DNA of 54,201 nt from Bacillota bacterium (lineage in GTDB: Bacteria; Bacillota; Sulfobacillia; Sulfobacillales; JAIMBI01). A program made the translations under genes and the position numbers. The number at the start of each line of letters is the position of its first letter. Within the stretch, counting starts at the first letter, position 1. Where the stretch lies: NCBI GenBank assembly GCA_021846505.1, contig JAJZWV010000018.1, forward strand, positions 1-54,201, read 5' to 3'. Positions 1,532 through 12,330 of this stretch are shown here, piece by piece. Below the pieces are notes generated by a model. It searched no databases. It saw only the letters and a list, made by a program, of their open reading frames with translations, and had not been told where the DNA came from.

Positions 1532-1832
1532 GAGGGCCCGCCGAGCGAGGGCGCCAGCAAATCAAACCCGGGGCGGCCCCCAGGCCGTTCGCGGCTAGAG
1601 CTGACCAGATGTGCCGCGCCCGCGCGCGGCCAAGCCAGCCACCTTCGGAGTGCAGCACCGCGACGGGCGCCGCCACATCCATCGCAAGGCCCGCCGTGGG
1701 CCCCACCACCGTGCTCTCTGACGGCGGCTCGGCGCAGCGCTGCCAATCCAGGCGCGCTCCGGCGCCCCCAGCCGCCTGGCACACCAAAAGCCGGCGCTGG
1801 ACTCGACTTGCATCCGGTGCTGCCACACGCAC
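1521..1832 (-). CDS. Hypothetical small protein, 103 aa (doubtful)
   Basis: A GTG at 1832 opens a frame that ends 11 bases inside the next gene. The product is alanine- and glycine-rich with three cysteines and shows no recognised domain. A different frame just upstream (about 1830-1900) reads like a secretion signal (LLGCAAVIAGGC), and the two frames meet at a run of six G. A single-base shift could therefore join them into one exported protein. As it stands the start is weak, and the entry could be a broken gene or a chance frame. Confidence 0.33.
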   Translation of the reverse strand: MRVAAPDASRVQRRLLVCQAAGGAGARLDWQRCAEPPSESTVVGPTAGLAMDVAAPVAVLHSEGGWLGRARARHIWSALAANGLGAAPGLICWRPRSAGPHGP

Positions 1833-1919
1833 CCCCCGGCAATCACGGCCGCACAGCCGAGGAGCTCACCGCTCCCCCTTGCCGCTAGTGTGCGCGTCGG
1901 CTGACGGGAGCGCAAATTT

Positions 1920-2906
1920 TTACGTGGCCATACCCTTTACAGCGGACACCGCGGCGGCGCCGGCACAGCGGGGTGGGATGCAGCCGTCGATCGGCGGCCC
2001 CAGCGCATCTAAGGCGCGTTCCCAGGCCTGGGGCCACGGCTCCACCACCGTTACCTGCCGGTGCGGGTGCGCCGGGTGGCCAAACGACAGCGCATACGCA
2101 AACAGCGCCTGGTGCGGCTGGCCCAGGGCGGGCCCCGATCCATACACCCCATCCCCCAGCACGGGGTGGCCCAGAGCCGCCAGATGGACCCGCACCTGGT
2201 GGGTGCGGCCGGTTTCCAGCTCCAGCGCCACCCAGCTGTGGCGCGGCCAGCGCGCCACCGTCCGATACCTTGTGGCCGCCGGCCGCCCAGCGCTGGCGAC
2301 CGCCATGCGGGTGCGGTGGCGCGGGTCGCGCCCGATGGGCGCCTCGATGCGCCCGTCCGGGGGATCCAGGTGGCCCTCCACCAGCGCCCAGTACCGGCGA
2401 TGCACATCCCGGCGGGCCAGCGCTGCACTGAGCGCCATGCGGGCCGACTGCGTGCGGGCCAGCATCATGAGCCCGGCGGTGTCGCGGTCCAGCCGGTGGA
2501 CCACGCCGGCGCGGCCGGCCTCTCCCCCGGCCGCCGCCACCTCCGGCCACAGGGCCTGCACCAGCGTGCCGTGCGCATGGCCCGCGCTGGGATGCACCAC
2601 CACCCCTGCGGGCTTGCACACCACCACCACCACGTCGTCGCGATAGCGAATCGGAATCTCGACGTCGAGCGGCTCATGCTGAAGCGGCACGACCGGCGGA
2701 AGCTCCGCGGGCAAATCGGCGGCGACCACGTCCCCCAGCGCCAGCAGCTGGCCGGCGCGTACTGCAGGGCGGCCGTTTACCTGCACTTGCCCGTCCGCGA
2801 TGGCGGTCTGCCAGCGCGTGCGCGACCACGTGGGCCAATGGGCCACCAGGACGCGGTCCAGCCGCGCGCCCGCCTCCAGCGGCCCGGCGGCAAACTGCTC
2901 CGTCAC
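1920..2906 (-). CDS. RluD-family 23S rRNA pseudouridine synthase (YlyB-like)
   Basis: Converts uridines in large-subunit rRNA to pseudouridine. The 328-residue protein has an N-terminal S4 RNA-binding domain (about 14-75) followed by the RluA/RluD catalytic domain. The catalytic motif HRLDRDTAGL around residue 140 supplies the nucleophilic aspartate, and GRTHQVRVHLAALGHPVLGD lies further on. The start is a GTG overlapping the lspA stop (GTGA), showing translational coupling. In Bacillus the same order ileS, lspA, ylyB is found, so this is the YlyB position. The exact target uridines cannot be read from sequence. Confidence 0.93.
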   Translation of the reverse strand: MTEQFAAGPLEAGARLDRVLVAHWPTWSRTRWQTAIADGQVQVNGRPAVRAGQLLALGDVVAADLPAELPPVVPLQHEPLDVEIPIRYRDDVVVVVCKPAGVVVHPSAGHAHGTLVQALWPEVAAAGGEAGRAGVVHRLDRDTAGLMMLARTQSARMALSAALARRDVHRRYWALVEGHLDPPDGRIEAPIGRDPRHRTRMAVASAGRPAATRYRTVARWPRHSWVALELETGRTHQVRVHLAALGHPVLGDGVYGSGPALGQPHQALFAYALSFGHPAHPHRQVTVVEPWPQAWERALDALGPPIDGCIPPRCAGAAAVSAVKGMAT

Positions 2907-3370
2907 CGGCTGGCGGGCGCCCGGTCGTGGCGCCAGGCCTCCACGGCTAGGAGAGCCATTCCGACCACAATGGCGCTGTCCGCCAAGTTAAACACCGGCC
3001 ACGGCCCAATCGAGACATAGTCCACCACTCGGCCGCTGACCCATCGGTCCCACAAATTGCCGACGGCGCCGCCCAACAAGAGGCCCAGCCCCCACACGAC
3101 CGCGCCGCGCGCCTCGGGGTGGCGCACCAGCCACCCCAGCCCGCCCGCCACCACCAGGACCCCAACCACGGCCAGCCAGGCGCTGCCGCCTTGGAACAGC
3201 CCAAACGCCGCCCCCGTATTTTCGGTCAGCATCAGGTGAACGCCGGGCAGCACCGCCACCGGCACACCCGGGGTGAGCCGGCTCAGCACCAATCCCTGCA
3301 CCCACCGGTCGGCCGCAAACACCGCCACGGCCAGCAGCAAGGGACCGGCCAGCCGGCCCCCGGGCCTCAT
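2903..3370 (-). CDS. lspA: Lipoprotein signal peptidase II
   Basis: Cleaves signal peptides from diacylglyceryl-modified prolipoproteins in the membrane. The 155-residue protein has four hydrophobic segments, and the family's two catalytic aspartates are visible in GNLWDRW and FNLADSAIVVG. An in-frame ATG lies further upstream, but the ATG at 3370 overlaps the ileS stop (ATGA) and gives the usual family length, so it is preferred. Its own stop overlaps the GTG of the pseudouridine synthase gene. The tight ileS-lspA-rluD chain indicates one transcript under the ileS T-box. Its likely clients include the solute-binding lipoprotein encoded nearby. Confidence 0.95.
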   Translation of the reverse strand: MRPGGRLAGPLLLAVAVFAADRWVQGLVLSRLTPGVPVAVLPGVHLMLTENTGAAFGLFQGGSAWLAVVGVLVVAGGLGWLVRHPEARGAVVWGLGLLLGGAVGNLWDRWVSGRVVDYVSIGPWPVFNLADSAIVVGMALLAVEAWRHDRAPASR

Positions 3371-6111
3371 CGAGGAGCCGCCGCGAGGGCTTCCTGGCAT
3401 CGCGAGCACACCCCCTCCGACAGCGTCGGCACCTGCCGCCAGCACCGCGGGCACTTCGGCCACGGCGACAGGGTGGCTTCACCCCGCCACTCCGCACCTT
3501 CTCCCGGGACGACGGTGACGGTGGCCGTCATCAGGAGGGTCTGGAGCAGGTCCGCGTCCTCCGCTGCGCTTACGACGTCCACCCCCCGGGGCGCCTCGAG
3601 CTTCAGGTCGGCCGCCCCTGCACCGCCCATGACGCCGGCCTGGCGCGCCTGCTCCAGAGCCCGCAAGCCCGCCTCGCGGGCTGGGAGCAGCGCCTGCACA
3701 CGAGCGAAGCCCGGCAAATCGGCCGCGCCCTCCGGCAGCGCTGGCCATACCATGTCCCAGGCCGCCGCGCGCAAGCCGCGGTGCTCCGCAATCTCATCGG
3801 CGGTGAACGGGCACAGCGGCATCAGGACCGCCTGCAGCACATTCAACACATGCCACAGCACCGTCTCGACCGCCCGCCGGGCAGGGTTCCCCACCGCCAG
3901 GGTGTATAAGGGGTCTTTGACCACGTCCAAGTAAAACGTCGACAGACTGACGACTGCCAGCCGCGTGAGCTCCTGCACCACCTGGTGAAACTCGTACGCC
4001 TCGTACGCGGCCCGCATCTTGGCGAGGCTCTGCGCCAGCTCCGCCATGGCCCACTGCTCCAGCGGCGGCAGCTCGCCGAGCGGGACGGCCTGGCTCGGAT
4101 CAAAGTGGGACAGGTTGCCCAGCAGGAAGCGGGCCGTGTTGCGCAGCTTGCGGTACGCCTCCGCGACGCGGGCCATCTGGTCGTCCGACACCCGCACATC
4201 GCCGCGGAAGTCAGTGGACGCGACCCAGAGGCGCACCACATCCGCTCCGTAGCGGTCCACCAGCCCAGAGGGGCTGACCACGTTGCCCAGCGACTTGTGC
4301 ATCGGCCGCCCTTCGCCATCCAGCACCCAGCCATGGGTCACCACACCGCGGTACGGCACCGCGCCACGCCAGGCCACGCCTTCGGTCAGCAGCGAGTTGA
4401 ACCAGCCCCGAAACTGGTCCCCGCCCTCCAGCACCAAGTCTGCGGGCCACTCCAACTCCGAGCGCCGCACCAGCACGGTCTGCGTGGCGCCCGAGTCAAA
4501 CCAGACATCAAACACATTCCACTCTCGCTCCAGCCGAGTGCTGCCACAGGTACATACGGGACGCGGATCGGGCAGCAGCTGCTCGACGTCCCACTCCCAC
4601 CAAATGGTCGAGCCGTGCTCGGCTACCAAGCTGGCTAGGTGCCGCACGATGGGGGCGGTCAGCAGCGGCGTGCCGCAGTCCTGGCAGGCGAAGGCTGGCA
4701 GGGGCAACCCCCAAGACCGCTGCCGCGACAGGCACCAGTCGCGGCGGTCCACTACCATGAGCCGCATGCGCTCCTGGCCCCAAGCGGGCGTCCACTGCAC
4801 CGCCTGAATCGCGTCCAGCAGCTGGGCGCGCACGGGTTGCAGCCGGAAAAACCACTGCGAGGTCGCGCGGAAAATCACGGGATACTTGCACCTCCAGCAG
4901 TGCGGGTATTGGTGCACCAGCGGCCGCTCCATGAGGAGCGCGCCGGCGGCCTCCAGCACCGCCACCACCACCGCCTCCGCCTGATCGTAGGCGAGGCCGG
5001 CCACCTCCGGCGTGCCCGCCACAAACCGCCCGGCGCTGTCCAGGGGCTGCACTACGGGCAAATCCCAGGCCCGGCCCAAGTCGAAGTCCTCGATGCCGTG
5101 GCCGGGCGCCGTGTGCACCAGCCCCGTGCCCTGATCGGCGGTCACGTGCCGCCCCGGCACCAGCGGCACGCGGTGCCCCAAGTACGGATGGCGGGCGGCG
5201 ACGCCGGCCAGCGCCGCCCCCGCCACCTCGGCCAAGATGCCCTCGCTCTCCAAGCCCACGTCGGCCAGAAACCTGGCCGTGAGCTCGGCTGCCACCAGCA
5301 GCGGCCCGCGCTGGGTGGCCAGCACCATGTAGCGAAAATCGGGATGGTACGCGATGGCCACGTTGGCGGGAATCGTCCAGGGGGTCGTGGTCCAAATCAC
5401 GGCGCGGGTGCCTTCCGGCAGCCCGCCCCGCTCCTCGGACATGACGTCAAACGCCACCCAAATCCCGCGCGAGGTTTTTTCCCGGTACTCCAGCTCCGCC
5501 TCGGCCAGCGCCGTTTCGCAGTGCGGGCACCAGTGCACCGACTTTAAGTCCTTGTACACTAGGCCGGCCTCCACGATGTCGGCAAACAGCCGCAGCTCGT
5601 CGGCCTCAAAGCCGGGGTCCAGCGTGGCGTACGGGTGATCCCAGTCCCCCATGATGCCGAGGCGCTGAAACTGGCGCGTCATATCCGCGACATAGCGGGC
5701 GGCCGTCTGCGCCGATTGGCGCCGCAGCTCGAGCGGTGAGATTTCGCGCTGCCCGACACCCAGCTCTTTTAACACCTGCATTTCAATCGGCAGGCCGTGG
5801 GTGTCCCATCCCGGCACGTACTGCACATCCTTGCCGCTCAGCACCTCGCGCCGGTTGATGATGTCTTTCAAGACTTTGTTCAGCACCGTGCCCATGTGGA
5901 TGTCCCCATTGGCATAGGGCGGCCCGTCGTGGAGGACATACCGTGGCTGCCCGACGCGTCGGCGCGCCAGCACTTCGTTAGCGCCCTCCGCCTGCCAGCG
6001 CGCGAGCCGCCGCGGCTCCTCCACCGGCAAGTTGCCCCGCATCGGAAACGTCGTGGTTGGCAGATTCAGGGTCGCTCGCCACGCTGACCCGCTGCCGCGC
6101 TCCTCCACCAT
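3367..6111 (-). CDS. ileS: Isoleucyl-tRNA synthetase
   Basis: Charges tRNA-Ile and edits misactivated valine. The 914-residue class I synthetase has the HIGH-equivalent HMGT (about 72-75, in YANGDIHMGT). The KMSKS-equivalent is present as MHKSLGN, and the editing domain lies between them. The last 30 residues hold a zinc knuckle of two CxxC pairs (CPRCW, CSRCQ). The ATG at 6111 was chosen over a longer in-frame start because the extension lies inside the T-box terminator; a GAGGTG Shine-Dalgarno sits just upstream. It is controlled by the Ile T-box leader and coupled to lspA. Confidence 0.96.
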   Translation of the reverse strand: MVEERGSGSAWRATLNLPTTTFPMRGNLPVEEPRRLARWQAEGANEVLARRRVGQPRYVLHDGPPYANGDIHMGTVLNKVLKDIINRREVLSGKDVQYVPGWDTHGLPIEMQVLKELGVGQREISPLELRRQSAQTAARYVADMTRQFQRLGIMGDWDHPYATLDPGFEADELRLFADIVEAGLVYKDLKSVHWCPHCETALAEAELEYREKTSRGIWVAFDVMSEERGGLPEGTRAVIWTTTPWTIPANVAIAYHPDFRYMVLATQRGPLLVAAELTARFLADVGLESEGILAEVAGAALAGVAARHPYLGHRVPLVPGRHVTADQGTGLVHTAPGHGIEDFDLGRAWDLPVVQPLDSAGRFVAGTPEVAGLAYDQAEAVVVAVLEAAGALLMERPLVHQYPHCWRCKYPVIFRATSQWFFRLQPVRAQLLDAIQAVQWTPAWGQERMRLMVVDRRDWCLSRQRSWGLPLPAFACQDCGTPLLTAPIVRHLASLVAEHGSTIWWEWDVEQLLPDPRPVCTCGSTRLEREWNVFDVWFDSGATQTVLVRRSELEWPADLVLEGGDQFRGWFNSLLTEGVAWRGAVPYRGVVTHGWVLDGEGRPMHKSLGNVVSPSGLVDRYGADVVRLWVASTDFRGDVRVSDDQMARVAEAYRKLRNTARFLLGNLSHFDPSQAVPLGELPPLEQWAMAELAQSLAKMRAAYEAYEFHQVVQELTRLAVVSLSTFYLDVVKDPLYTLAVGNPARRAVETVLWHVLNVLQAVLMPLCPFTADEIAEHRGLRAAAWDMVWPALPEGAADLPGFARVQALLPAREAGLRALEQARQAGVMGGAGAADLKLEAPRGVDVVSAAEDADLLQTLLMTATVTVVPGEGAEWRGEATLSPWPKCPRCWRQVPTLSEGVCSRCQEALAAAPR

Positions 6112-6681: not shown

Positions 6682-8310
6682 CTAGCCCTTGAAGGAGACC
6701 CGGTTCAGTGGCGTATACCCCTGGATGGGCCTGTGGTTGCTCCGGAAGCCCTTGACGAAGGTGCGCACTTCCGACAGGGAGTAGGCCGGCGTGGGCACAA
6801 ACAGCCCCGGCAAGTTCTGCGCCGCGTACACCTGATAGGCATTAAAGCGCCGCGTCACTTGGCTCCTGGTGCCATCTTTGTAGGTGGCCGCAATCAGGCG
6901 GTTCATCGTGGAGCTGTTGTACGCACCGAGGTTGAACCCGGCGGTCGGGAGAAACAAACTCCCGCCCGACGGGTAGAAGTCGGGGACGTAGCCCCCGGCA
7001 AACCCGCCAGCCATCGCCCACTTGTTGGACTGTGAGGCGCTGCCGATGATATCGCCGAACGCCTGGCTGCCAATCGGCTGGAGGCTCACGTCGATGGCCT
7101 CGCGGGCCCAGTCCTGCTTCAACAGCTGGGCCATGTCGTTAAGCGTGGCCGACCCCGTCGAGTACACCAGGTTGAAGGCGAGCTTCTGGCTGCCTTTGGT
7201 CATGACACCGTTGACAAGGCTCCACCCGTTCTTCTCCAAGAACTTCTTGCCTGCGGCGGGATTGTACGGGTAGGGGTTCTTGAGCGCCTTATCGTAGTAC
7301 GCGTTGGGCGGCTTCGCCGGCACCGGGCCTATGGTCGGCACAGCGTACCCATGGTACATGCTCTGGATGATGGCCGGTTGGTTCATGCCCATCTGCAGCG
7401 CCTGGCGCAAGTACAGGTTGTTGAACAGGCCCCCGATGCCATACGCGTTGGTCCGGAAGTTGAGAGGCAGGTAGAAGAACTCCATCGCGGTGCGGGCCGT
7501 CAGGTGGTACCCGGTCAGCTGGTTCTTGGACCTGTAGAGCGAGAACGGTAGGTAGCCCACGTCCACTTTGTGCGTCCGCATCTGGGCAAATTCGGCCGAC
7601 GTTGACGTCTCATAGAGATACGTCACAGTCTTGATCTGGGCCGGATGCGCCCCGGAATATTTCGGATTGGCCACGAACGTGTAGTACTGGTTGGTGACCG
7701 CCTTCTGGATTCGGTACGGCCCGTCCACCACTCGGTAGATGGGGTCGTTCGGGGAGTTGGCCACGCTCTTGATGAACGCGAGCTCTTTTTGGACATTGCT
7801 GTGCTTGTCCCACGTGGACTTCGGCACCGGGACGAGCTGGCTCAAGCCGTTGTGCTCAAACCACACCGGGTTGACGGACTTGTTGAGCGTGACGACTACC
7901 GTGTGGGATCCGGCCGCCACCACACTCTTGAAGTCCGCCGGCACGCCGCCGGACCCGGAAAAACAGTACGGGAATGGGGAATTTGAGGCGCTGGCCCCGT
8001 GGATAAGGGTCCAGTCGTAGACGACATCCTGCGCGGTGATCGGCTGGCCGTTGGACCAGCGCCACTTCGGGTTCATGGTGATGGTGTACCGCGAGTACTG
8101 CTTGCTGACCGCAATCCCGGAGGCAATCGAGCGCGAATCCTCGATTTGGTCCGTGCGGCTGAGCCACAGGAGCGCCATGTACATGCGCGGTCCTCCGACG
8201 CCGCCGCCGGTCAGTGTACTGCAGTCCGTAGACGATACAATCGGGGGCCACCAATTGAGGTTGCTGGCTGCGCTCAGCGCAATCGTAAGGGTGTAGCTGC
8301 CGCCCCTATC
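6682..8310 (-). pseudogene. 3' part of family-5 ABC solute-binding protein gene, interrupted by a transposon
   Basis: About 542 residues match a peptide/nickel-type (SBP_bac_5) extracellular binding protein: it begins GGSYTLTIALS and continues through the family's ligand-binding lobes. Motifs include WRWSNGQPITAQDVVYDW near the start and LRQALQMGMNQPAII in the middle. It has no signal peptide; upstream codons come from transposon DNA. The missing lipoprotein signal is found 3.4 kb away at 11766-11918 in the same orientation, so the gene was split by the mobile element. No permease or ATPase genes lie beside it. If expressed from the internal start it would stay cytoplasmic and be useless for import. 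Confidence 0.85.
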
Positions 8311-8327
8311 TGACCGAAACCTGACGG
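8311..8327. repeat. Left terminal inverted repeat of transposon
   Basis: TGACCGAAACCTGACGG here is matched in inverted orientation at 11749-11765 (TGGCCGAAAGTTGACGG), 14 of 17 positions identical. A further CCCCTA two to three bases outside each end is also shared in inverted orientation. Confidence 0.75.
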
Positions 8328-8379
8328 GCTCGGGTGTTCGGGAGTTGCTGGGAGCGGTGGCCACGGCGGGGACGACAAG

Positions 8380-8416
8380 GAAAAGACCCGCAGCGGGGTC
8401 CGGCCCCGGCTGCGGG
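8380..8416 (-). terminator. Terminator at the end of the transposon operon
   Basis: On the minus strand CCCGCAGC-rich and GCTGCGGG arms form a strong GC hairpin, followed by TCTTTTCCTT. It lies between the last transposon gene and the left inverted repeat. Confidence 0.7.
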
Positions 8417-8433
8417 CCGTGGGGACGGGGGAG

Positions 8434-8868
8434 TTAGTCCAGCGGGGGCAACAGCGACGCCACCCAGCGGCGGCGATCGGCCGGGCCGGTGGGGAACGGT
8501 TGCCAGGGCACCGTCCGCCGCCAATGCCAGAACGCATAGGCCCGGTGCGGCGTCGCCATGGCCCGGTGGACCGCCAGCCGCGCCGCCCGGTCCGGGGTCG
8601 GCCCCGCGAGCGCCAGCCCATACGCGGTCCACACGCCGAGATCCTCTGCGGGCCAGGTCCGTCCCTGGACGGCCAACCAGGTGGCCGCCTGGATCAACTC
8701 CCGCGCTTCGTGCGCCACGTGCCGGGGCGGCTGGTCCTGCCAGGCCACGAACTGGAGGTAGTCGTTCAGCCATTCGGGAAACCCGTCGCCGTCGTAGACC
8801 TGAACCCAGGGCCGGGATCCGGCGCGGTGGGCCCGGTAGGGCGGCGCGGTCGCGCGCGCCGCCCTCAT
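8434..8868 (-). CDS. Transposon-encoded protein of unknown function, 144 aa
   Basis: The ATG overlaps the stop of the ATPase gene (ATGA), so it is translationally coupled and belongs to the element. The product is rich in tryptophan and aromatic residues, with segments such as WVQVYDGDGFPEWLNDYLQF and YAFWHWRRTVPWQPF. No domain was recognised, and there are no membrane segments or signal. Its fixed place behind the transposition ATPase suggests an accessory role in transposition or target choice, but that is inference only. Confidence 0.7.
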   Translation of the reverse strand: MRAARATAPPYRAHRAGSRPWVQVYDGDGFPEWLNDYLQFVAWQDQPPRHVAHEARELIQAATWLAVQGRTWPAEDLGVWTAYGLALAGPTPDRAARLAVHRAMATPHRAYAFWHWRRTVPWQPFPTGPADRRRWVASLLPPLD

Positions 8869-9665
8869 GCCAGTTCTCCTTGGATGACCCGCGTCACCAG
8901 CGGCTCGTCCAGCACGCGGTGCCCATTTTGGGCCCCGTACAGCAAGGCGTGCGTCGCCACCTGGTTAATGAGGCGGGCCGCGCCGCTGGAGTACCGGTAG
9001 ATCGCGTCCAGGGCACTGTCCGCGAAAATCGCCTGCGTCGTGCCGGCGTAGGCGAGGGGCGTCTGCACATAGGCGGCCGTTTGCGCCCGGTCGAGATACG
9101 GGACCCGGCACTGCAGGTCGATACGCTGGCGGATGGCCTTGTAGGCCTGGCGGCTCAGCCGGTCCCACAACTCCGTTTGGCCCACGAGAATGAGCGCCAG
9201 CGGGCTCGCCGAGTCCATCTCCACGTTGAGCAAAAAGCGGCCCTCCTCCAGCATCTCCCGGTCCAGCAGGTGCGCCTCGTCAACAATGGCCACCGGACGG
9301 AGCCGGTGGACGCCGCGCAGGACGGCGATTTCCCGGTGGAGCTGCCGTTTGGCGTCCCCCCGGTAGAACGGCGCCTCGCACCCGAGTTGCGCCAGCAGCG
9401 CTTTGTAGAAGTGACGCGGCGTGAGTTTGGAGTCCGCCACGTACAGGACCTGGTAGGTCGCCGGGTCGAGCTGCGTGTGCAAGCGCCGGATGGCGGTGCT
9501 TTTCCCGGTCCCGCAATCCCCGGTCACCACCGCGAACCACTGGCGTTCGGCGGCATAGCGCAGTCGGCTGCCGAGTTCCTCCCCCTCGGCCGAGGCATAC
9601 AACGCATCGGGGGGCAGATCCCGCGTGAAGGGGGTGTGCATCATCCCGTAGAACGCTTCAAACAT
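8865..9665 (-). CDS. Transposition AAA ATPase (ExeA/TniB-like)
   Basis: The 266-residue AAA ATPase shows Walker A GDCGTGKST (about residues 49-57) and Walker B VAIVDEAHLL, followed by LILVGQTELWDRL, typical of the ExeA/TniB/IstB-like group. In related elements the partner ATPase binds DNA and directs the DDE transposase to targets. The start at 9665 overlaps the transposase stop and begins MFEAFYGMMHTPF, the usual opening of this family. A longer in-frame extension upstream lies inside the transposase gene and was rejected. All core motifs are intact. Confidence 0.9.
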   Translation of the reverse strand: MFEAFYGMMHTPFTRDLPPDALYASAEGEELGSRLRYAAERQWFAVVTGDCGTGKSTAIRRLHTQLDPATYQVLYVADSKLTPRHFYKALLAQLGCEAPFYRGDAKRQLHREIAVLRGVHRLRPVAIVDEAHLLDREMLEEGRFLLNVEMDSASPLALILVGQTELWDRLSRQAYKAIRQRIDLQCRVPYLDRAQTAAYVQTPLAYAGTTQAIFADSALDAIYRYSSGAARLINQVATHALLYGAQNGHRVLDEPLVTRVIQGELA

Positions 9666-11058
9666 CCCCGCGCCCCCCTTCGCCGGGGGCGCCGTCCGCC
9701 GCGGCCGCCGACGGGGCGGCGGCTGGCGTGAGCCCCCGGAAGAAGACGGCCGGGGGGGCGGCCGCCGCCCGGGCGGCGTGCCGCTGCCGGGCGCCCGCCA
9801 GCACCCACGAGTGCGTCGGGGCCGTGGCCCCCAGGTGGGCGGGGAGCGGGGGCCGAGGCCCGGTGTGGGCGCCCACCACCACCGGGTGCGCGGTCCAGGG
9901 CACCGTCCCCGGCGCCTCCAGGGTGATGGTCGACACGTCCACCGGGTCGTCCACGACCTCCAGCGTCTGCCCAAACCACAGGAGTCCGACCTCATAGGGT
10001 TCGCCGCGGAAGCTCACGCAGCCGGTCTTGTCCCCCTGGCGTCGCTCCACCCGCCGACACGCCGCGGCCAGGGTCTCGACGTCGACGAGCCGCAGCGGCT
10101 CCGGGTCGCCCCGATAAGCCGCCTCGGGGTGCAGACCGTTGGGCAGGGCCCGGTGGAGTTTCGTCTGGTAACACTCCACCAGCCACACGTCCCAGGCGGC
10201 GTTGAATGCCGCCAACGTGGTGGGCCGGTCCAGCCGCACTTCCGCCAGAAACGCATCCACCACCCGGTTGAAGCGCTCAATTTTCCCCTTCGACTCGGGC
10301 GCGTAGGGCTTCGTATAGACGCGGCGCATCCCGAGCTGCGCGGCCATCCGGGTGAGGTGGCGCGACCGGTACTGTTTGCCATTATCCATGGACCAGGCGC
10401 TGCGGGACCCCATACCGCCGGATGGCGGTCCGCAGGCTGTCGACGACCACGGGTTCCTCTTGCGTGGGATACCACGCCGCGTGGGACCACGAAGCGCGTG
10501 GCATCATCAATAATGGCCGACAGGTACGTGGGTTGGGGCGCCTGCCCGGGCCCCCCGGGCAGGCGGGGACCATATTTGAGATCGGTTTGCCAGAGGGCGT
10601 TGCGGTGCGGCCGCTGAAAGCGGCGCGCGGCCACGCCCGCCGCGGTGTACTGCCGCATCTGGCGGGCACTGTACCCCCCGGGTGGTCAACTGTTCCTGTA
10701 GCGTGCTCCGTTTGAGCGTGCCGGGGGCCACCTGGCCTTCCCACTCGAGCACCTGAATGATTTGGCGCACGCTCCGGTGCGGCGCTTCCCGGCGCAGCTG
10801 ACTGGCGGCGTCCAACACCGCCGGCGTAATGGCCACGGGGCCGGCCGCCGGACGCCCCGGCGGGCGCAGGCCGGCTAAGCCCGCCGCCTGGTACGCCGTG
10901 ACCCACCAGCGCAGCGTCCGGGCCGACAGGCCGGTCTGGTCCACAATGTGGGTCGTCACCTGGGGGCGCTGGGCCGCATCGGTCGCCTCATCCACGAGGG
11001 GCGCAATGATCTGGAGCCGTTCCGTCGCGATCGCCTCGGCGTGGTCGCGGGTCGTCAT
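9658..11058 (-). pseudogene. DDE (rve-type) transposase with three apparent frameshifts
   Basis: From ATG 11058 an N-terminal HTH (TGLSARTLRWWVTAYQAAG) and linker run to about 10680. The rest is in other frames: NALWQTDLKYGP (first Asp) to about 10490, then PVVVDSLRTAIRRYGVPQRL to about 10400. MDNGKQYRSRH (second Asp) and PESKGKIERFNR (Glu) follow. Each change behaves like one surplus base in a G or C run (near 10671, 10486 and 10390), and together they restore the original frame. Without them the protein would be a complete DDE transposase of about 465 residues with a Mu-transposase-like C-terminal extension. Either the gene is decaying or the sequence has indel errors. Confidence 0.85.
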
Positions 11059-11108
11059 GGGCAACACCCACCTTTAGTGCGGGGTCGCCTCATCGTGGAT
11101 CGCGGCGG

Positions 11109-11573
11109 CTAGGCCAACCAGGCCGAACGGGTCTGTCCCCACGCCGCGTGGTGGACGAGCCGATGGACCACGACCGCCAGCCAGCCCGGCGGGGCGGCCA
11201 GCCACGGCGGAGGACCCTGGAGCGCGACCGGCCACGGATCCCCCGGGTCCGTGGCCGCCCACCAGCGGCGCGCCGCCACCACACAGGACGTGAGCCAGTG
11301 CCCCCAGCGCGTCACCGTCCCCTCATCCACCGCCACCGCCGCCGCGCGGCCCTGGGCCGCCACGGCCTCCCAGCTCGCCACGTCGTAGCGCTTGTAGGGC
11401 ACGAGACACGCGGGCAGTTCATGGTGGAGGCGGCGGCAGGCGGCGCAGTACAGCCGCCGAATCACCAGCACCTGGCGCGTGCCGTCGGCCGTCCGCCGCG
11501 TCCGCCGCCGACTGCCCACCACCACCAACCGGCCGGCACACACCGGGCACGGGCTCTCGGTCGTACTCCGCAC
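11109..11573 (-). CDS. DUF6431-like zinc-finger protein of the transposon
   Basis: The 154-residue protein opens CPVCAGRLVVVG and continues RLYCAACRRLHHELP with VPYKRYDVASWEAV, a CxxC...CxxC zinc site of the DUF6431 type that accompanies transposases in Bacillota. The rest is Trp-rich helical sequence. It is the first gene of the element, starting at GTG 11573, about 50 bases ahead of the transposase ATG. It probably binds DNA, perhaps at the element ends, but its role is unproven. The alternative is a regulator of transposase expression. Confidence 0.72.
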   Translation of the reverse strand: MRSTTESPCPVCAGRLVVVGSRRRTRRTADGTRQVLVIRRLYCAACRRLHHELPACLVPYKRYDVASWEAVAAQGRAAAVAVDEGTVTRWGHWLTSCVVAARRWWAATDPGDPWPVALQGPPPWLAAPPGWLAVVVHRLVHHAAWGQTRSAWLA

Positions 11574-11642
11574 ATAAAAAGGTTCAGCTCGGCGCTCGGC
11601 TCCAGCGTGTAATCTGCTATACTAACCATGTTGTGGACCCAC

Positions 11643-11688
11643 GCGCCCGGGGAACTGCTGTGACCAAGCAGTCATACACCCCGGGCGC
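11643..11688. repeat. Nested inverted repeat near right end of transposon
   Basis: Outer arms GCGCCCGGGG and CCCCGGGCGC (10 bp, 11643-11652 with 11679-11688) enclose inner arms ACTGCT and AGCAGT (11654-11659 with 11667-11672). On the plus strand a TATACT at 11618-11623 precedes it and TTCCTTTCC follows. It could be a terminator blocking read-through or a short structured RNA. Confidence 0.6.
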
Positions 11689-11748
11689 TTCCTTTCCCCC
11701 CACAGGGTTTCCCGGCCAGTCTAAGCCAGCAAACGACGGCGGGCAACG

Positions 11749-11765
11749 CCGTCAACTTTCGGCCA
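11749..11765. repeat. Right terminal inverted repeat of transposon
   Basis: On the minus strand this reads TGGCCGAAAGTTGACGG and matches the left end at 8311-8327. A 7-bp hairpin (GACGGCG with CGCCGTC, about 11735-11753) overlaps it. Confidence 0.75.
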
Positions 11766-11918
11766 TTTTAGGGGAGCGAAAACAGTAAGGGCGCTCGGCG
11801 TGCTGGCATTGGACGACGGGCTGGCGCCACATGCCGCCAGGGTCGCCAGCATGACCGCGCCCGCGGCAACCCCGGCCGCTCGCCGCCACCTGCGCGGGCG
11901 ACGCTCGATACCAAACAA
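11766..11918 (-). pseudogene. 5' part of the interrupted solute-binding lipoprotein gene
   Basis: A TTG at 11918 preceded by a strong GAGGAGGTG Shine-Dalgarno starts a classic lipoprotein signal: a basic region (RRPRRWRR), a hydrophobic core and the lipobox LAAC followed by GASPSSNASTPSA. After about 51 codons the frame enters transposon DNA and soon stops. The mature binding-protein body, lacking a signal, resumes on the far side of the element (6682-8310). The two parts together would give a normal family-5 binding lipoprotein of roughly 590 residues. Confidence 0.82.
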
Positions 11919-12330
11919 GAGAAACACCTCCTCGGAATGTTTGTGCGAGGTCACGTCCGGATTCGCAGTGAAATAGGCGGGGTTCCGCCGACGCCATCAG
12001 ACCTCCCGCTTCCAATTGCCGTGTGCGGAAGGTCTGGAAACAAGGGTCGGGGCAACAGCAAGAGGTCGAACCCATCGGTGAAAAATCCACCCTCAGCTGG
12101 GGCAGCGATGTCACCCTCGCGCCGATGCAGGGGGCTCCAGATCACTTCAGGAGCGGAACGGCGCGCACCCATGTCCACACGCCTGTCTACCATCTGACTG
12201 CGAGACGCACACGGGGTTCCGGTTACCGCTGTCTTCACCCTCACATGTCGACTGTTTCTCTTAGGAGTTCACGCATGGGACTTAGCTTTTTCATATATGA
12301 ATATTGACTTGATTTCGTAGAGTCTGTCAA
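11919..12330 (-). promoter_or_regulatory. Untranslated leader and likely promoter region of the solute-binding gene
   Basis: No convincing gene is seen in these 400 bases. At the far end a minus-strand TTGACA (12330-12325) begins an AT-rich patch unlike its surroundings, including the 12-bp palindrome TTCATATATGAA (12290-12301). A -10 box at standard spacing is weak. The long leader between this patch and the TTG start contains small hairpins, but no known riboswitch motif was recognised. Confidence 0.4.

Follow-up and report, generated by a model that had tools for sequence, protein, structure and literature searches.

A compact TnsB/TnsC-type transposon family of Firmicutes with a DUF6431 gene and a variable gene behind its ATPase

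Tn7-like transposons, including the type V-K CRISPR-associated transposons (CAST) such as ShCAST with its TnsB, TnsC and TniQ, pair a TnsB-type DDE transposase with a TnsC-like AAA+ ATPase, and the type V-K elements do so between TGT...ACA ends and without TnsA. Tn6022, another TnsB/TnsC-type transposon, encodes TnsF, a non-catalytic protein derived from a tyrosine recombinase; its target is comM, and it contains zinc fingers beside a catalytic domain that is inactivated (Faure et al. 2023, PMC10293859). Further systems for comparison are IS21, with a small two-gene core of a DDE transposase (IstA) and an AAA+ helper (IstB), the one-gene elements of the IS481 family, and phage Mu with MuA and MuB. 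Here we describe a transposon in contig JAJZWV010000018.1 of a Bacillota bacterium (54,201 nucleotides, analysed over its whole length and called the window below), in which genes for a DUF6431 protein, a DDE transposase, an AAA ATPase and a fourth protein of 144 amino acids (aa) follow one another. On balance, and with modest confidence, we favour the reading that it is a TnsB/TnsC-type, that is AAA+-assisted DDE, transposon that lacks both TnsA and TniQ, and that its fourth gene encodes a DNA-binding adaptor which serves the ATPase and can be exchanged. The features shared with type V-K CAST are the TnsB-type transposase, the TnsC-like ATPase, the TGT...ACA ends and the lack of TnsA, whereas the family of the window element has no TniQ, no CRISPR part and no long cargo, measures 3.0-3.6 kb, makes a 6-7-bp target duplication and has DUF6431 in addition.

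The four minus-strand genes are present in the order that the initial annotation had claimed, according to Pfam matches and reading frames, and the parts of the element are as follows.

8292..11784, minus strand: whole transposon, 3493 bp, with ends TGTAGC.../...CGAAAACA, placed by family end comparison
8285..8291, unstranded: left copy of the target-site duplication GTAAGGG, an exact 7-bp repeat bordering the family-defined ends, with an empty site in two same-genus genomes (G002, G003)
11785..11791, unstranded: right copy of the duplication GTAAGGG, an exact 7-bp repeat bordering the family-defined ends
8292..8340, unstranded: fourth-gene-side terminus, TGTAGCTGCCGCCCCTATC and inner repeat TGACCGAAACCTGACGG, from the alignment of family ends; end-profile score 15.8
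11735..11784, unstranded: DUF6431-side terminus, TGTTTTCGCTCCCCTAAAATGGCCGAAAGTTGACGGCGTTGCC (reverse strand), fitting the family consensus TGTTt..GCtaa...aaAAtg.CC.AAAGcTGAcGg.ATTGCC; end-profile score 32.8, the higher of the two
11109..11573, minus strand: DUF6431 protein with N-terminal zinc ribbon and helical C-terminus (PF20020, E = 4e-24; the model of a relative resembles the NrdR zinc ribbon, Z = 5.0)
9658..11067, minus strand: DDE transposase with helix-turn-helix (HTH), rve and Mu-type C-terminal domains, three frameshifts near 10675, 10484 and 10405 (family search with an intact relative; TnsB, E = 1.7e-19)
8865..9665, minus strand: MuB/TnsC-like AAA ATPase (AAA_22, E = 8e-23), overlapping the transposase stop by 8 nt, ATGTTTGA
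8434..8868, minus strand: fourth gene, 144 aa, product resembling a tyrosine-recombinase core-binding (SAM-like) domain without catalytic domain; its ATG overlaps the ATPase stop by 4 nt

The octamer of the transposase-ATPase overlap is found exactly at the start of 82 of 90 ATPase genes and accounts for the valine that invariably ends the transposase, and the 144-aa open reading frame (ORF) is joined to the ATPase gene through an ATGA overlap. The DUF6431, ATPase and 144-aa genes are open in the window. Compared with the intact homologue of Alicyclobacillus dauci, the window transposase runs through frames 2, 3, 1 and 2, and the D, D and E catalytic stretches remain readable despite these three frameshifts. 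They may be either genuine decay or an assembly error, and the window copy is probably immobile, barring a transposase that acts in trans.

In a profile search of the PDB, the transposase family profile covered TnsB of ShCAST, its best solved relative, nearly end to end, and IstA of IS21 was second. HTH, rve and Mu-type C-terminal domains were found in relatives of the transposase, Mu-transpos_C exceeding its cut-off. The ATPase profile matched MuB (E = 1e-6), its best solved relative, and VchTnsC (E = 1.6e-4). The element shares the Mu-type C-terminal domain and the MuB likeness with phage Mu but is not a phage. Among the marks of Tn7-like elements, the TnsB-type transposase with Mu-type C-terminal domain and the TnsC-type AAA+ ATPase are present and a TniQ/TnsD selector was not found; the search for TniQ (PF06527) covered the window's genome. 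The same matches bear on whether the locus could be a plain insertion sequence (IS) of the IS481 or IS21 family with hypothetical neighbours, which we regard as very unlikely. IS481 is the nearest NCBIfam name and the closest curated family for the transposase, and TGT/ACA ends are common to IS481 elements (PMC11406308), yet the scores of two relatives (198 and 221 bits) fall below the cut-off of 224, and IS481 elements have one gene and neither ATPase nor DUF6431, whereas three or four genes lie in the repeated unit here. With IS21 the element shares the transposase and AAA+ helper, but the best solved relatives of the ATPase are MuB and TnsC, not IstB, and the IS21 helper model NF038214, with a cut-off of 200 bits, scored 12.3 bits on one distant relative and was not listed for another. 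The DUF6431 gene and the fourth slot are extra to IS21 as well, and the MuB/TnsC-like ATPase, the Mu-type C-terminal domain and the two or three partner genes within the duplicated unit all argue against a plain IS.

Three genomes define the extent of the unit directly: the complete chromosome of Tumebacillus avium has ten copies, Halalkalibacterium halodurans has four and an Aneurinibacillus two. These copies start with TGTT, end with AACA and in most cases have 6-bp duplications. End profiles recognised both ends in 56 database copies, 42 of which had flanks on two sides, and an exact 6- or 7-bp duplication was seen in 28 of the 42. The consensus ends are TGTTt..GCtaa...aaAAtg.CC.AAAGcTGAcGg.ATTGCCTGtCC and TGTTActGcca...tAta.TGtCC.gaaaTtGACGgtgT.agtTGTCC. 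The family is widespread in Firmicutes, with DUF6431, DDE transposase and MuB/TnsC-like ATPase in elements of 3.0-3.6 kb with 6-7-bp duplications, and the window copy has its gene order, its ATGTTTGA overlap, its TGT ends and its duplication, together with a frameshifted transposase. The earlier proposal that such elements form a group of their own among TnsB/TnsC (Mu/Tn7)-type transposons is borne out. No description of a DUF6431 transposon family was found in a literature search that reached neither ISfinder nor most older IS papers, and DUF6431 was mentioned in one of the papers searched, in a gene table only.

The initial annotation had placed the ends at 8311 and 11765 (TGACCGAAA/TTTCGGCCA) with TGRCCGAAA as terminal motif. 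The family-wide comparison puts them at 8292, where the sequence starts TGTAGC..., and at 11784, where it finishes ...GAAAACA; TGRCCGAAA was accordingly rejected as the terminus, being an inner repeat in both ends about 20 bp inside the true ends. This inner part is probably a second transposase site. The duplication GTAAGGG can be read either as a 7-bp repeat or as a 6-bp repeat next to an end that carries an additional G. The letters AAGGG are common to it and to CCAAGGG, which flanks 1661-5448 of locus L211 (orientations as read), and both adjoin copies with a fourth gene; two cases prove no target preference.

DUF6431 is a core component of this transposon family, and the earlier view of it as a family feature is confirmed by its presence in nearly every copy. 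We sampled 30 DUF6431 loci from closer relatives of the window and 29 across the phylum, and a transposase of the window kind adjoined DUF6431 in 42 of these 59 (20 of 30 and 22 of 29, respectively); several of the remaining loci were at contig ends or in decayed copies. DUF6431 was present in 48 of 199 sampled phylum genomes. Its zinc ribbon resembles that of NrdR, in the relative's model listed above, and those of several transposases; Foldseek with DUF6431 gave no significant match. The candidate that DUF6431 is a TniQ homologue was rejected, as TniQ is absent among the families listed for DUF6431 members and the zinc ribbon is of the kind just described. Weaker matches occur in Mycobacterium and Thermobacillus elements and suggest that the spread is wider still. 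In one locus (L228, 1452-2226; G110:C24), DUF6431 and the ATPase are in a single open frame, as if an internal deletion had removed the transposase.

The slot behind the ATPase was compared among 80 copies, retained from 325 relatives found by scanning genome contigs with the ATPase profile; in this sample, relatives of the A. dauci ATPase are over-represented and some copies are almost identical to one another. The slot was empty in 35 of the 80, with about 96-150 bp from the ATPase to the end. It held a DUF5348-like protein in 27, an 80-aa family with EYFLKTGFYDLLP in 6, a DUF6618-like protein in 6 (weak matches), the window type in 4, TIGR04540 in 1 and an unplaced 79-aa protein in 1, so that at least five mutually dissimilar small-protein families use it. 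The 144-residue gene is not a family feature: the refuting outcome named beforehand, its absence from most copies, is what was observed, most of the copies with a filled slot carrying a dissimilar gene. On the ATPase tree the slot labels are clustered, yet 14 changes are needed. This variety, together with the empty copies, favours the explanation that passenger genes settle in the slot and use expression from the operon for the benefit of the host or of some other element, for example in anti-defence, with no role in transposition. We nevertheless consider it unlikely: neither PHROGs nor PADLOC, with its defence models, matched any of the fourth-slot types, and the SAM-like family of the window stays with diverged ATPase lineages inside one order, where by inspection its groups pair as the ATPases do.

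The window-type fourth protein was found by profile search in 22 of 46 related genomes, all in the window's own order, and the ATPase lay directly upstream at most of the loci checked. In the ATPase tree, ATPases followed by this gene occur on either side, and branches with good support require at least two changes of label. It is mobile with the element, as two 3.8-kb copies in a complete genome (G017) are 99.95% identical, and the ratio of nonsynonymous to synonymous substitution rates (dN/dS) of 0.24-0.41 indicates purifying selection. Pfam and NCBIfam gave only sub-threshold matches for the 144-aa protein, and a PDB sequence search with its expanded profile gave nothing. The AlphaFold model is a four-helix bundle that matches the XerA N-domain with Z = 10.0, the next best being 2.7. 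In addition, the family profile reaches the N-domains of two full tyrosine recombinases, and hhalign aligned the protein with recombinase N-domains at 95% (E = 2.7e-8), compared with 0.1% for a DUF6431 control. The ORF stops after the N-domain in 16 of 16 aligned members, leaving no catalytic domain. With good confidence, we regard the fourth protein as a tyrosine-recombinase core-binding domain without its catalytic domain. In a separate locus (L159, 4623-7100; G035:C38), a complete tyrosine recombinase gene comes immediately after a DUF6431 gene and the front half of the transposase. The N-domain of this recombinase resembles the fourth protein, and the arrangement is a possible clue to the fourth protein's origin.

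The window's fourth protein and TnsF have in common, as far as the predicted likeness holds, that a recombinase-derived protein without catalysis is encoded beside TnsB/TnsC-type transposase machinery. TnsF is larger and has a known target, whereas the window's protein is a core-binding domain alone and no common target was seen. By analogy with TnsF, and from its position behind the ATPase and its likely DNA-binding fold, we infer a plausible adaptor role, and the earlier suggestion of a part in target choice or regulation for the extra genes gains some support in the case of the fourth gene. The same fold would also suit a small DNA-binding regulator of the element, which binds near a promoter or near the right end, 142 bp from the gene, and limits or stabilises transposition without choosing targets. 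Regulators encoded by IS are common. We hold this to be rather unlikely, as in most copies the fourth gene is coupled to the ATPase gene and not on the promoter side, and as dissimilar proteins in one slot suggest a common partner more than a common binding site.

Several points weigh against an adaptor. The case is entirely computational. The model of the fourth protein is of low confidence, with a predicted local distance difference test (pLDDT) value of 67 and only 4 sequences behind it, and, by the tool's own warning, Z values under about 13 may reflect a chance arrangement in helical bundles. Foldseek with this model gave no significant match, no Pfam integrase model matches the protein, and both recombinases used in hhalign were first picked up by the profile of the fourth-protein family. 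The gene is dispensable, as elements that lack it multiply readily (10 copies in T. avium). A single attachment site for the fourth-gene elements was considered and rejected because the flanks differ between copies, and no fixed attachment site therefore supports a TnsD- or TnsF-like selector.

If the adaptor reading is followed, the transposase would bind repeats in each end, one in the terminal TGT block and one in an inner block about 24 bp inward. The MuB/TnsC-like ATPase would assemble on target DNA and then activate strand transfer, staggered by 6-7 bp. DUF6431, through its zinc ribbon, would be an obligatory accessory factor in DNA binding or assembly. The fourth slot, translated right behind the ATPase, would carry an optional and exchangeable adaptor, which in the window's order would most likely hold on to DNA and load the ATPase or bias it, the part that TniQ or TnsF plays in Tn7-like elements. 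Without TnsA, donor cleavage may be one-stranded, and a cointegrate or a copy-out circle may result. More tentatively, the position behind the ATPase could serve adaptors generally in Tn7-like elements of a TniQ-free branch: dissimilar small proteins would have been recruited to it to steer the ATPase, the window's protein would be a minimal target selector made from the core-binding domain alone, and DUF6431 would be a hitherto unrecognised core transposition factor.

DUF6431, so far an orphan family, acquires a concrete setting within transposition machinery. Compact 3-kb TnsB/TnsC-type elements with and without a fourth gene make the effect of an accessory beside the ATPase testable. Should the slot hold target adaptors, the family would offer a natural series of them to compare with TniQ, TnsE and TnsF, and the window element may show how such transposons swap partner proteins.

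The insertion splits a gene for an SBP_bac_5 (oligopeptide-binding) lipoprotein, of which two parts flank the element.

6682..8291, minus strand: 3' part of the SBP_bac_5 lipoprotein gene (PF00496, E = 2e-52; uninterrupted orthologues)
11792..11954, minus strand: 5' part of the gene, with the lipoprotein signal peptide (open reading frame; uninterrupted orthologues)

The orthologues in G002 and G003 are intact, and their length equals that of the window gene minus the element and one 7-bp copy, indicating the empty site.

Elsewhere in the window's genome (G000), contigs C16, C9, C3, C34, C80 and C83 (L011-L016) hold only fragments of several related elements with 71-81% DNA identity; the family was once active there and then decayed. 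A 5.5-kb copy in T. avium (L122, 1388-6911) has an internal stretch of about 2.5 kb that is absent from other copies and is probably a nested insertion. In an actinobacterial relative on a Streptomyces plasmid (NZ_CP109461; L168, 3762-3992), a 76-aa gene lies between transposase and ATPase and overlaps both, perhaps as a second variable slot. Finally, a Sulfobacillus acidophilus plasmid (CP003180; L047, 2864-6142) carries a family ATPase, 71% identical, with a coupled 98-aa gene; it has no matching transposase or DUF6431 alongside and adjoins group II intron reverse transcriptases.

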